A model generated the notes under the pieces. That model was not told the DNA's origin. It was given only the letters and a program-made list of their open reading frames with translations, and ran no database searches. This document shows positions 22,535 through 27,011 of a DNA stretch of 45,908 nucleotides, one piece after another (position 1 is the stretch's first letter; each line of letters begins with the position of its first letter). Origin of the DNA: an uncultured Sphingobacteriales bacterium (GTDB lineage: Bacteria; Bacteroidota; Bacteroidia; Chitinophagales; Chitinophagaceae); the NCBI GenBank assembly GCA_946479435.1, contig CAMLFX010000013.1:1-45908 (forward strand), read 5' to 3'. A program made the translations under genes and the position numbers.

Positions 22535-23932
22535 CTAGTAAGCTGTTTCTTCAGCAGCCCATGTAGTCCAATCTTTAGTCCAGTCGTTTGAAGTATCGAA
22601 TGCACCACGGTAAGCTACACTTTGGAAGCCCGAAACACCAGTGAAATCGGCACCAGCTATAGCAGGTGAACTGCTTTTAAGCACGAAGCTAGGACGACCG
22701 GTTTTTGAAGAAACTGCAGGAGAAAACTTATATGCATCAGCTATACCAGCCATTGGAGATTCTTCCAATACAGTTGTATTAGTAGCATTCATTAAAGCAG
22801 TCCATGCAGCAGGATCAGTATCATTCAAAGTAGCTTTGAAAGGAACTGTGCAACCTGCGAAGATGTTGTTTTTGAATTTAAGGTTACCGGCAATCATATT
22901 AGCTGAAGTAGGTGTACCTTTTGTGTCGTCTATATAAAGACCTACAGGGTAACCAGTGAATATCGAGTTGATGATTGTTTCAGATGAGTTACGGCGTATT
23001 TGAGCACCATGTTGGAAGTTAGCGTTGATACCGGAATTTCCTTTAGTAGCAATTGGGCCAACAATAGTCATGTTAGAGAACATTGCCTTAGTCTGAGGAG
23101 TGTGGGTAGAACCATTACCATCGTTATCTGATTCAAAACCATTAGAACCTGATACGTCAGCAGTTGTCAGTACACGTTGCGCAAGACCAAATTGTACTTT
23201 ACCAGAGTAACCGAAATCAGTATCGAAATCATCATCCCAGGTATAGGTAGCTATCAGGTGATCGCAATTTACAGTACCGCCAAACCATTCGTAAGCGTCA
23301 TCGCCTGAACGGTAAACCTGTACGTAGCTGATAGTTGTACCTGCACCTACGCCACCCATTGTAAGACCATTGATCTCGTTATCAGGAGAGTATGCTACAC
23401 CCGCAAATTCAATACGAACATACTTTAATGTACCTGAGTTATCAGATGCATCGCTGCCACCATAATAAATATAATCTTTTTCGCTACCACCGGCAGTTGG
23501 CGTTAAACCACCTTCAATTTTAGCTTCACCACCATCAGGGTTAATAGGAGCTTTACCTAAAAGGATAACACCGCCCCAGTCACCTTCGCGACGTGCGCCT
23601 GTAGCTTGTGCAGAGGTGAAAACGATTGGCTGGGTAGCAGTACCTTCTGCCATTACTTTACCACCACGGGCTACAACAAGTGTACCTTTTGATGCTTTTT
23701 CACCCATAATAACCGTACCTGGTTGAATAGTAAGTGTTGCACCTGATTTTACATACACAAAACCTTTTAGCAAATACTTTTTGTCTGAAGTAAGCGTTTG
23801 GTTTGCAGAGATGTCACCGCTAAGTTCTACAACATCACTTTCTGGGGTTGGATCAACAGTTGTCGGATTCTTGTCTTTACAAGCACCGAAGAAGATTGTT
23901 AAGGATAAGCTGGCTAATAGAAGCTTTTTCAT
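22535..23932 (-). CDS. Surface lipoprotein with right-handed beta-helix repeats
   Basis: A 465-residue protein. A signal peptide ends in FFGAC, with the lipid-anchored Cys at residue 18, followed by an acidic/Pro linker (residues 19-36). The body has the repeating, Gly/Asp-rich pattern of a parallel beta-helix: GATLTIQPGTVIMGE, GDWGGVILLGKAPIN, LKYVRIEFAGVAYSPDNEINGLTMGG in part, DDAYEWFGGTVNCDHLIA and DDDFDTDFGYSGKVQFGLAQR. It resembles a widespread Bacteroidota lipoprotein family of unknown function, often encoded with a TonB receptor as here. It has its own promoter with 11-bp repeats shared with the receptor gene. Surface exposure and ligand binding are inferred. Confidence 0.85.
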   Translation of the reverse strand: MKKLLLASLSLTIFFGACKDKNPTTVDPTPESDVVELSGDISANQTLTSDKKYLLKGFVYVKSGATLTIQPGTVIMGEKASKGTLVVARGGKVMAEGTATQPIVFTSAQATGARREGDWGGVILLGKAPINPDGGEAKIEGGLTPTAGGSEKDYIYYGGSDASDNSGTLKYVRIEFAGVAYSPDNEINGLTMGGVGAGTTISYVQVYRSGDDAYEWFGGTVNCDHLIATYTWDDDFDTDFGYSGKVQFGLAQRVLTTADVSGSNGFESDNDGNGSTHTPQTKAMFSNMTIVGPIATKGNSGINANFQHGAQIRRNSSETIINSIFTGYPVGLYIDDTKGTPTSANMIAGNLKFKNNIFAGCTVPFKATLNDTDPAAWTALMNATNTTVLEESPMAGIADAYKFSPAVSSKTGRPSFVLKSSSPAIAGADFTGVSGFQSVAYRGAFDTSNDWTKDWTTWAAEETAY

Positions 23933-23954: not shown

Positions 23955-23962
23955 CGAAAGTA
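23955..23962 (-). promoter_or_regulatory. Probable -7 box TACTTTCG of the beta-helix lipoprotein gene
   Basis: It differs from TAnnTTTG at one base, on the minus strand, about 22 nt before the ATG. It lies 26 nt downstream of the nearer operator repeat, with the upstream repeat a further 22 nt away. Confidence 0.45.
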
Positions 23963-23980
23963 TGTGGTGTATTTAATGCC

Positions 23981-24010
23981 AATGTTACGTCAGCATTAAC
24001 TTAATGTTAA
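23981..24010 (-). promoter_or_regulatory. Pho-box-like direct repeats upstream of the beta-helix lipoprotein gene
   Basis: On the minus strand TTAACATT (24010-24003) and GTAACATT (23988-23981) are exactly 22 nt apart, that is two 11-nt units. The same core and spacing occur before the TonB receptor gene. The repeats start 3 nt past the TonB receptor stop codon. PhoB/PhoP-type response regulators bind 11-bp-spaced TTAACA-like repeats, so an OmpR-family regulator is a reasonable inference. Confidence 0.6.
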
Positions 24011-24013
24011 GTG

Positions 24014-26839
24014 CTAAAATTTGTATGTATAAGTAAGTGAAAACGTTGAGCCGGGGCGGAACCTTTTTAGAATGTAATCATTTGCCGGTTCTGCAAAACC
24101 CGATTCATTTTTTACTATACCGTCATACTTATCATTTCGGTTTTGATCGTAGTAGAAGAAGTATGGGGCGTTTAAAATATCTTTTATATTAAAACGCAAC
24201 TCACTCCTTTTAGAAACATTATATGCTACCTGGAAATCCAGAAGGTTGCGGGGCTGCTCCCATACGTTACCCAGATTCTCTCCACCTACTAAAAATATAC
24301 GAGGCCCAATCCTGTTATATAATATGTTGAAATTCAGTTTACCTTCCATGGCAGTATATGTCAGGCTGGTATTAACTACATAGTTAGACTGACCTGTAAG
24401 CGGACGATCTATTTTTGTCACAGCTCCAGTGGCAGCACTTGTATCGTTACCAATTACTTGAGATTTAACGTATGCCAGATTAGCGTAGAAGCTAAGGTTC
24501 TTAGCTAATCTGCTTGAAGGAGCAATAAAACTTAGACTCTTCCTGATCTCAACCTCGGCACCAACATTCTGCGCACTGGGATAGTTACGGGCAGAGATTT
24601 CTAACTGACTTGTAGTTGCATATACACTCTGCTCAAGGGTATTATCAAAATGCTTATAGAAAACAGAAGCTGAAAATATTTCACCTGCATTAGGATATAA
24701 TTCGAAGCGTAGATCAGCATTATGGATCTGGCTTCGTTCCAAAGATTGATTACCATAAGATAGTGCCGATAACTCATAATCATAATATGCAAATGGCGCC
24801 ATTTCCCTAAACTCGGGACGTGCTACAGTTTTATAATATGATGCGCGCAGATTGATTTTTTCATTTAGCGAATAAGTAAAGTTTGCTGATGGCAATACAT
24901 CTACCCATGTTTTATCAACAGCTACGGGTGCACCACCATTGTTTTTAGAATCTAACTGTATGTTAAAAGATTCTACTCTCACACCCCATACCAGACGGAA
25001 TTTATCATTGAATTTATTATCAAGCATTACATAGCCTGCATTTGTATTTGAATTAGCTGTATAAGCGTCAGACGGAAGTGTTGTTTCAACCAGATCAAAA
25101 TAACCTTTATCAATAGCTGTTTGGCTAAATAGATTTCCAACAGGTTGTTGTTTAATAATAGTAGCCTCATCGCTCGGCGTTCTTCCAAAATTTTCATTAA
25201 GAGTCAAACCAAGAAAGCGTGCATCAAAAGTACGTTCACGGTATTGCGTAGCAAGTCCTAGCTTTAAAGTTGTTTTGTTCAGCAATTCAAGAGGTAATGT
25301 ATAATTTACGTTTGCTGAATAAATATTTTCACCAAGCTTTGAAAACAAACGGTTGTTAGCCTTACCACTTGTACCTACTTCTGCAGCAAATGGCACACTT
25401 GGGTCGTTTTGATCACTTAGCAGTTTACCATATTGTACCTTACGTTGATCCGGTTGGTCATTGTTCACTCTGTTATATGCAACAAGCCAGTTTATCTTGC
25501 TTTGCTTTTTGCCTAACTTATGATCGCCTTCCAGCGATGTTTTAAATAATGATTTCTGAAACAGATCATAAGCATAGTATTCAATAGCCTTATTTATTGA
25601 GCTATTATTACCTGTACGTTCTAAAAAGTAATCATCAAATATTTGGTTATATAGAGTTTTCAGTACTATTTTAGAATTTCCTGCTGAATAACCCAGATTT
25701 AACATAGCACCCAGGTTTGTAGAATATTTATAGCCATTATCAGTATAATCATAGCTGTCATATATACGCTCCAGGTTAGGCTCCCTTGTTTCATTATGCG
25801 TATAATTAATGGCGGCAACCACACCAAAACGATTGTTTTTCTTGGTTAAATAGCTACGGCCTAAAGAGGCTTGCAGGTTCATGCCTGGCAGTGCTTTTCT
25901 TTCCTTAACAGTAAAATTGTTATTTAGCTTATTAATAGACGCAATACTAGTTGCTTCATCTGTATTAGTAACAACAGATTTTGTTGAAGGCATATCCGAT
26001 GGCAACTTACGTGAACCGTCATCAAAGCCTAAAAAGTCCGTACTGCTGCGGTAGCCTGATTTAAAGGTTTTAAAAGTAGAAGCAGTATTATAACTACCGC
26101 CTATAGAAATTGTATTAAAGTTTTCCTGCGGAATTTCTTTAGTAAGAATATTAATAACACCACCTGCAAAATCGCCCGGTAAATCAGGAGTTGCAGTTTT
26201 AGTGATAATGATATTATCTATCAGGTTAGCAGGAATAATATCGAATGAGAATGCTTTACGATTAGGTTCAGTACTTGGCAATACGGCGTTATCAACCATA
26301 CCTACATTGTAGCGGTCGCTCAAACCACGTACAATAACAAATTTATTGTCTTGTATAGTAGTACCGCTTACACGTTTCAGTACCTCACCTGTACTGCGGT
26401 CGGGCGATTTACGTATTACATCTGCAGATATACCATCAGAAATTGATGCATTATTTTTCTGCATTGTGTACAGCGAATTGATATTCTCCTTTTTCATAGT
26501 GGTTCTCACCACTACCTCGCTCAGCTGTGTTGATTTTGATTCGGTAATAGCTACATTAATAGATGCGGTAGCATTATTAGCCACTTTCACCTCTTCTATC
26601 TCTTTAGTTTGGTAGCCTATGTAGTTTACCTGTATAGTGTAGGTACCTGCATCTACTTGTATCTGGAAATTACCATCCACATCAGTTGCAGCACCTTTAG
26701 GTGTTCCCTTCACAACAATTGTTGCCCCTATTACAGGGTCTCCTGTTTTCTCATCAGTAATTTTACCTGCAATCGTCCCAATTGAAAATGCCTTCAAAGA
26801 AATCAATAACAATAAGAAGGACATTGTAAGAATACGCAT
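24014..26839 (-). CDS. TonB-dependent outer membrane receptor
   Basis: A 941-residue outer membrane transporter. A signal peptide (residues 1-19) is followed by a carboxypeptidase-D regulatory-like domain (about 22-105: GTIAGKITDEKTGDPVIGAT, IQVNYIGYQTKEIEE), then a plug domain (about 115-235: GEVLKRVSGTTIQDNKFVIVRG, FSFDIIPANLIDNI, TPDLPGDFAGG). A long beta-barrel ends in FSLTYTYKF with the terminal aromatic typical of barrels. No SusD-like partner is present. The downstream gene encodes a beta-helix lipoprotein, and both are preceded by matching 11-bp repeats, so they are probably co-regulated. The ligand is unknown. Confidence 0.93.
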   Translation of the reverse strand: MRILTMSFLLLLISLKAFSIGTIAGKITDEKTGDPVIGATIVVKGTPKGAATDVDGNFQIQVDAGTYTIQVNYIGYQTKEIEEVKVANNATASINVAITESKSTQLSEVVVRTTMKKENINSLYTMQKNNASISDGISADVIRKSPDRSTGEVLKRVSGTTIQDNKFVIVRGLSDRYNVGMVDNAVLPSTEPNRKAFSFDIIPANLIDNIIITKTATPDLPGDFAGGVINILTKEIPQENFNTISIGGSYNTASTFKTFKSGYRSSTDFLGFDDGSRKLPSDMPSTKSVVTNTDEATSIASINKLNNNFTVKERKALPGMNLQASLGRSYLTKKNNRFGVVAAINYTHNETREPNLERIYDSYDYTDNGYKYSTNLGAMLNLGYSAGNSKIVLKTLYNQIFDDYFLERTGNNSSINKAIEYYAYDLFQKSLFKTSLEGDHKLGKKQSKINWLVAYNRVNNDQPDQRKVQYGKLLSDQNDPSVPFAAEVGTSGKANNRLFSKLGENIYSANVNYTLPLELLNKTTLKLGLATQYRERTFDARFLGLTLNENFGRTPSDEATIIKQQPVGNLFSQTAIDKGYFDLVETTLPSDAYTANSNTNAGYVMLDNKFNDKFRLVWGVRVESFNIQLDSKNNGGAPVAVDKTWVDVLPSANFTYSLNEKINLRASYYKTVARPEFREMAPFAYYDYELSALSYGNQSLERSQIHNADLRFELYPNAGEIFSASVFYKHFDNTLEQSVYATTSQLEISARNYPSAQNVGAEVEIRKSLSFIAPSSRLAKNLSFYANLAYVKSQVIGNDTSAATGAVTKIDRPLTGQSNYVVNTSLTYTAMEGKLNFNILYNRIGPRIFLVGGENLGNVWEQPRNLLDFQVAYNVSKRSELRFNIKDILNAPYFFYYDQNRNDKYDGIVKNESGFAEPANDYILKRFRPGSTFSLTYTYKF

Positions 26840-26859
26840 ATATGCTTAGAATTTGCATG

Positions 26860-26867
26860 CAAAAGTC
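26860..26867 (-). promoter_or_regulatory. Probable -7 box GACTTTTG of the TonB receptor gene
   Basis: It keeps the nnTTTG part of the consensus but starts GA rather than TA, on the minus strand, 20 nt before the ATG. A weak core box beside operator repeats fits an activator-dependent promoter. Confidence 0.4.
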
Positions 26868-26875
26868 GCTTGCGT

Positions 26876-26926
26876 ATGTTACCAACAGTTTACCGGAATG
26901 TTACGCGTATATCAACAGAATGTTAA
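26876..26926 (-). promoter_or_regulatory. Pho-box-like 11-bp-phased direct repeats upstream of the TonB receptor gene
   Basis: On the minus strand TTAACATT (26926-26919), GTAACATT (26904-26897) and GTAACAT (26882-26876) are spaced by exactly 22 nt each. Read as 11-mers the block is TTAACATTCTG, TTGATATACGC, GTAACATTCCG, GTAAACTGTTG, GTAACATACGC, so the intermediate units are degenerate copies. The last repeat starts 15 nt before the -7 box, in place of a -33 element. Confidence 0.65.
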
Positions 26927-27011
26927 GCCAATATTAATTCCGGATAATTGCACAAAATCATGTTGTTTTTTTATTATTAAATTATTATCACGGTCGCCCG
27001 GTAAATCGCTA

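Follow-up and report, generated by a model that had tools for sequence, protein, structure and literature searches.

The 45,908-nt contig CAMLFX010000013.1 of an uncultured Sphingobacteriales bacterium (the window, by which we mean this whole 46-kb stretch) carries on its minus strand a gene for a TonB-dependent receptor followed by one for a lipoprotein, and each is preceded by an array of 11-nt direct repeats and by a −7 box, the Bacteroidota promoter element with the consensus TAnnTTTG. In the direction of transcription the features are as follows.

26872..26937, minus strand: putative receptor operator, six 11-nt units TTAATATTGGC TTAACATTCTG TTGATATACGC GTAACATTCCG GTAAACTGTTG GTAACATACGC
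26860..26867, minus strand: receptor −7 box GACTTTTG, 15 nt from the start of the last strong unit
24014..26839, minus strand: TonB-dependent receptor, 941 aa, with CarbopepD_reg_2, Plug and TonB barrel domains
23967..24010, minus strand: putative lipoprotein operator, units TTAACATTAAG TTAATGCTGAC GTAACATTGGC ATTAAATACAC, starting 3 nt past the receptor stop codon
23955..23962, minus strand: lipoprotein −7 box TACTTTCG, 26 nt from the start of the last strong unit
22535..23932, minus strand: lipoprotein, predicted beta-helix, 465 aa, with a lipobox-like Cys18 read by eye

The strong units of the receptor array start at 26926 (TTAACATT), 26904 (GTAACATT) and 26882 (GTAACATA) on the minus strand, 59, 37 and 15 nt from the −7 box; degenerate units lie at 26915 and 26893, and the spacer between the last 11-mer and GACTTTTG reads aagc. 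The lipoprotein array has strong units at 24010 and 23988 (48 and 26 nt from its box), degenerate units at 23999 and 23977, and the spacer caca before TACTTTCG. Every one of these distances is 4 mod 11, so that both promoters fit the single 11-nt register claimed in a preliminary description of this DNA, whose repeat words, 22-nt spacings and distances to the −7 boxes proved exact; the extra receptor unit TTAATATTGGC at 26937 lies beyond the units it had listed. By a published definition, a PHO box comprises two or more direct repeats of 11 nt in which seven positions are conserved and four are loose, the consensus differing between species (PMC4415409); both arrays have at least two such units with a conserved core. 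When each upstream region was subjected to 2000 first-order Markov shuffles, none reached the observed array score, whether three, four or five units were scored. The two arrays were the only ones of their kind in the window, with four-unit scores of 31.9 and 20.6 relative to 8.7 for the next best place on either strand. As the score matrix was built from the window's own copies, the shuffle and window comparisons are partly circular, and related genomes provide the out-of-sample test of the array.

Relatives were taken from a scan for the lipoprotein, as the best 80 loci from at least 597 stretches in at least 576 relatives. The −7 box was read as [TGC]AnnTTTG and units as TAA[CT], with at least two required at one phase, phase 4 being the register of the window. 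A receptor-sized open reading frame (ORF) lay directly upstream of the lipoprotein in 70 of the 80 loci. Of the 70 receptor upstream regions, 69 had at least two units at phase 4 and 67 had at least three, whereas each of the ten other phases was found in 0 to 4; the sole region without phase-4 units (L071) was cut by a contig end. Among control ORF upstream regions of the same 80 loci, 10 of 394 had units at phase 4 and 384 did not. The repeats are thus kept before orthologous receptors, a check that the preliminary description had proposed. When the period was varied, the mean receptor score was 17.1 at 11 nt and only 3.8–6.1 at 8–10 and 12–16 nt. A plain four-unit array score exceeded 95% of 383 controls at 59 of 69 receptors and 34 of 79 lipoproteins. 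After removal of sequences with at least 70% identity, 25 receptor promoters were left, and when these were aligned on the phase-4 box the information lay mainly in TAAC.

Upstream of the lipoprotein, at least two units at phase 4 occurred in 33 of the 80 loci and each other phase in 0 to 4. Because these 33 stand against 69 of 70 receptors and the array is kept more often in the Chitinophaga/Taibaiella type, we concluded that the conserved operator is that of the receptor and that the private lipoprotein promoter is mainly a trait of the window's group. We take the Chitinophaga/Taibaiella-type group to be Chitinophagales and the Pedobacter/Sphingobacterium/Mucilaginibacter group to be Sphingobacteriales. 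In many Sphingobacteriales the repeats continue into the −7 box itself (CTAACATTGTGgtaaTAGCTTTG), whereas the nearest strong unit of the window is 15 or 26 nt off. Among lipoprotein relatives in genomes across the class, 27 upstream regions were examined and 10 had a TAnnTTTG box, 8 of them with units at phase 4, although one of the eight, L191, shares its upstream region with L077. In Hymenobacter, phase-4 units preceded each of three genes (3/3), namely those for the receptor, the lipoprotein and a divergently transcribed DNA/RNA endonuclease. The −7 boxes of the window are off-consensus, as the preliminary description had said, but this did not hold in general, since the 69 receptor promoters comprised 56 with TAnnTTTG, 10 with GAnnTTTG and 3 with CAnnTTTG.

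To find other genes with the array, we scanned 24 whole genomes (8 Sphingobacteriales and 16 others) for the exact pattern TAACAn6TAAYAn9TAnnTTTG and classified the matches by BLAST and Pfam. There were 26 matches, 0–3 per genome, as against 2 for the reversed form. Nine preceded a receptor, six a PhoU_div/DUF47 gene, five an OMP_b-brl_4 gene, two a DUF2490 gene and one a DNA/RNA endonuclease; the other three preceded an ECF sigma factor, a TonB plug protein and, in one case, no ORF. The matches are therefore not scattered at random, the outcome that the preliminary description had named as damaging, but lie before PhoU_div, nuclease and outer-membrane genes. Six of the 8 Sphingobacteriales genomes supplied the PhoU_div matches and the 16 others none, and in L122 a PHO4 (Pit) phosphate transporter is the next gene after PhoU_div. 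A three-unit pattern with one mismatch allowed gave 34 matches and 0 reversed in 28 genomes; the 30 with loci comprised 10 OMP_b-brl_4, 9 receptor, 5 lipoprotein, 1 PhoU_div and 5 others. The OMP_b-brl_4 genes of the receptor/lipoprotein clusters are also of the array-bearing kind. pstC was present in 77 of 247 genomes of the class. In the 30 pstC loci read, 7 loci contributed 8 sense-strand boxes at phase 4, and the ten remaining phases together had a single box; on the antisense strand phase 4 had 0 and the others 2. Two units at period 11 reached p ≤ 0.05 in 21 of the 30 pstC loci (40 shuffles per locus) compared with 1–4 loci at periods 9, 10, 12 and 13. The array thus occupies the position of a PHO box, before phosphate-acquisition genes.

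In 10 of the 80 loci (Taibaiella, Chitinophaga and Niabella), PhoU_div and pit are also found upstream of the lipoprotein in divergent orientation, with the receptor between in 9, and PhoU_div itself is present in 19 of 20 genomes of the window's group. Before many PhoU_div genes of that group (L137–L154) we noticed by eye a recurrent 11-nt repeat of the type TTAAGn6TTAAG, off register, which may be a Pho box that has diverged or the site of a different regulator. Of PstS-like proteins (TIGR02136), only 1 of the 24 genomes had one over the cut-off.

PhoB-like regulator genes, the candidates for reading the array, were present in 24 of 24 genomes, with 4–16 matches per genome to the PhoB model at the search threshold and a match in 14 of 24 genomes at a stricter one. 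In 23 of the 24 genomes the promoter of the best PhoB-like gene itself contains two units 11 nt apart, relative to 38 of 394 control upstream regions. The gene after the regulator was a histidine kinase in L230 and a fabF-type gene in L225. In Niabella L024 (637–9362), a stretch of about 9 kb contains the lipoprotein, PhoU_div and pit, the last two matching in pieces, together with an OmpR-type regulator. That regulator is the genome's best PhoB-model match (L244), yet it shares only 35% identity with the regulator of L221, and of the 24 promoters examined only the one before it lacks the two units.

The lipoprotein had no match among Pfam and NCBIfam models, and structure prediction gives a beta-helix, probably kin to ElpS-type proteins. 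ElpS (CC0170) of Caulobacter crescentus is an outer-membrane lipoprotein made in phosphate starvation and encoded beside the TonB receptor CC0171, whose gene is reported to be constitutive (PMC2996285). The kinship was measured via an alphaproteobacterial Indioceanicola cluster of the ElpS layout, beside gspN/gspD, to whose members the lipoprotein is 34% and the receptor 25% identical (the latter over 836 columns). The pairs are alike in the adjoining TonB receptor, found in the window and, as a receptor-sized ORF, in the 70 related loci. They differ in that the receptor precedes the lipoprotein here, in that both promoters here have an operator in contrast to the constitutive Caulobacter receptor, and in the type II secretion genes of the Caulobacter layout; these, which are not defining, were not found among the flanking genes scanned (part of the window's ORFs). 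A SusC/RagA receptor with a SusD-family lipoprotein was rejected: the receptor scored 76 bits relative to a TIGR04056 cut-off of 368, and the lipoprotein had neither the family match nor the fold. In seven loci of relatives in the class (L196, L198, L199, L201, L202, L203 and L217), frames of 1147–1337 aa have two lipoprotein-domain matches in tandem, as does the Indioceanicola relative.

Comparable low-phosphate-induced pairs are known within the Bacteroidota. In Flavobacterium johnsoniae, TonB/lipoprotein pairs are among the genes strongly induced by phosphate starvation, one pair lying in the phoBR operon; the FI/FII lipoprotein and TonB-dependent transporter clusters (PUSIII, PUSIV) include a lipoprotein with pectin-lyase/polygalacturonase likeness (PMC8115612). 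The resemblance is drawn from the published description, and the terms "Pho box", "promoter" and "motif" are absent from the main text of that study. DAP-seq of Riemerella anatipestifer PhoP gave a motif in which TTTAACA is most conserved, together with autoregulation (PMC9603813). It is like the core found here, but it was called ArcA-like, and the passages cited describe no promoter-phased 11-nt array. In Bacteroides fragilis, the pstC promoter is bound by PhoB, which both the pst genes and a phosphate/sulphate permease require (PMC3547664). The arrays resemble the PHO boxes of Escherichia coli, Bacillus subtilis and Streptomyces, read by PhoB or PhoP, in being 11-nt direct repeats before phosphate-starvation genes (PMC4415409). 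They differ in their core, TAACATT rather than CTGTCAT or GTTCACC, in reaching up to six units, and in being phased to the Bacteroidota −7 box; the E. coli core CTGTCAT was not found here, although it is not defining across species.

We propose that the two arrays are, very probably, Bacteroidota-type Pho boxes read by a PhoB/PhoP-type regulator, the common operator suggested in the preliminary description and supported as far as sequence goes. From the PHO-box literature (PMC4415409), the R. anatipestifer motif (PMC9603813) and B. fragilis PhoB (PMC3547664), we infer the regulator, its phosphorylation and its contact with sigma. The operator consists of rows of 11-nt direct repeats with the core TAAC, roughly [GT]TAACATTnnn, whose strong units are locked in helical register to the −7 box at 15, 26, 37, 48 and 59 nt. 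In phosphate starvation a PhoB/PhoP-type response regulator would be phosphorylated and would occupy the units in head-to-tail order along a single face of the DNA, the fixed register placing every unit on the side of the helix where sigma is contacted, and the subunit closest to the −7 box would touch the housekeeping sigma factor. The regulator would then turn on the TonB receptor and the ElpS-kind beta-helix lipoprotein, along with phosphate transporters and nucleases, and the pair may take up a phosphorus compound. The second array, just past the receptor stop codon, would give the lipoprotein its own promoter. We also think it likely that this is a Pho box peculiar to the Bacteroidota, with up to six TAACATT-type units at 4 mod 11, 15–59 nt from the −7 box, that it allows PhoB-type activation from successive helical turns, and that it defines a predictable phosphate regulon of receptor, ElpS-type lipoprotein, pit, pst, nucleases and OMP_b-brl_4 proteins.

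Several observations weigh against the Pho-box interpretation. Neither promoter of the window has a TTTG at −33, which had been taken as a sign of activation, but 3 of 57 array-bearing receptor promoters had one as against 3 of 74 array-less control upstream regions with a −7 box, so that its absence does not separate array promoters from others and is uninformative. When the plain four-unit array score had to exceed 99% of the 383 controls, just 11 of the 69 receptors and none of the 79 lipoproteins passed. The top-scoring controls included OMP_b-brl_4 genes from the receptor/lipoprotein clusters, and dnaX and a helix-hairpin-helix gene as well. Among Pedobacter promoters, many hardly differ from one another; the lipoprotein array was retained by 20 of 26 loci in the Chitinophagales-type group but by 13 of 54 in the Sphingobacteriales; and as the scanned genomes all contain the lipoprotein, the nine receptor matches to the exact pattern were to be expected. 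In none of the 24 genomes did the PhoB-like genes reach the curated cut-off of either PhoB model, and the units in their promoters lie at other distances from the −7 box than those of the receptor arrays. The 30 PstS-like loci were mixed, with 7 places scoring at least 18 relative to about 1 from shuffles, only 2 of the 7 before the PstS-like gene. The preliminary description had suggested checking whether matches lie before pst, pho or phosphatase genes; this held for PhoU_div (6 of 26) and for pstC operons of the class, but in the window's own group 0 of 22 usable PhoU_div loci had at least two units at phase 4. This clean 0 of 22 lowered our confidence in the Pho-box reading slightly.

An array missing from the PhoU_div genes of the window's group would suit the operator of some other OmpR-family regulator, ArcA-like, RprY-like or a Riemerella-like global PhoP, that answers redox or envelope stress and has phosphate genes as only some of its targets. 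The 583 DAP-seq peaks of R. anatipestifer PhoP and its motif, likened by the authors to that of E. coli ArcA (PMC9603813), would agree with such a regulator, as would the several PhoB-model matches in each genome and the arrays before ECF sigma factor and DUF2490 genes and another TonB receptor. We nevertheless regard it as unlikely, for exact arrays are rare, those few include PhoU_div and a nuclease, and pstC promoters also have the array. That the phased TTAA steps are simply bent DNA or a nucleoid-protein site easing promoter opening, with no dedicated regulator, fits the helical phasing of 11 nt but is very improbable, as the information lies in TAAC and not in A-tracts, nearly all control upstream regions of the same loci have no array, and the array-bearing genes are linked in function.

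If the Pho-box reading is correct, a motif with a fixed promoter register would make the phosphate regulon of Bacteroidota readable from genomes and predict which genes related Bacteroidota switch on without phosphate; it would also link uncharacterised outer-membrane pairs with phosphate and serve as a test case for how an OmpR-family activator meets the unusual sigma factor of this phylum. Members of the Bacteroidota play an important part in phosphorus recycling, and proteomics shows proteins that rise in phosphate starvation (PMC8115612). Our full-text literature searches, with most subscription papers and preprints outside their reach, found no Bacteroidota Pho box described with its geometry or register; the nearest published motif is the TTTAACA of Riemerella PhoP.

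The immediate neighbours of the pair in the window are a CCA-adding-type nucleotidyltransferase and an aminotransferase. In Chitinophaga (L005, L013, L017, L023 and L064) the OMP_b-brl_4 gene downstream of the lipoprotein has two arrays, separated by 217–287 bp and each in register with a −7 box of its own, which suggests two stacked promoters. In Pedobacter (L039, L044, L065, L066 and L078, with matches in L171 and L173) a conserved phase-4 array with TACTTTTG lies 3.8–6.7 kb after the lipoprotein start. No ORF consistently goes with this array, and in L044 and L078 it is directed into the end of a convergent 583-aa gene, so that the transcript it drives may be antisense or non-coding. The 583-aa gene belongs to an acyltransferase cluster, presumably of the ornithine-lipid type, and the L060 member of that cluster matches PF13444 and PF19576.

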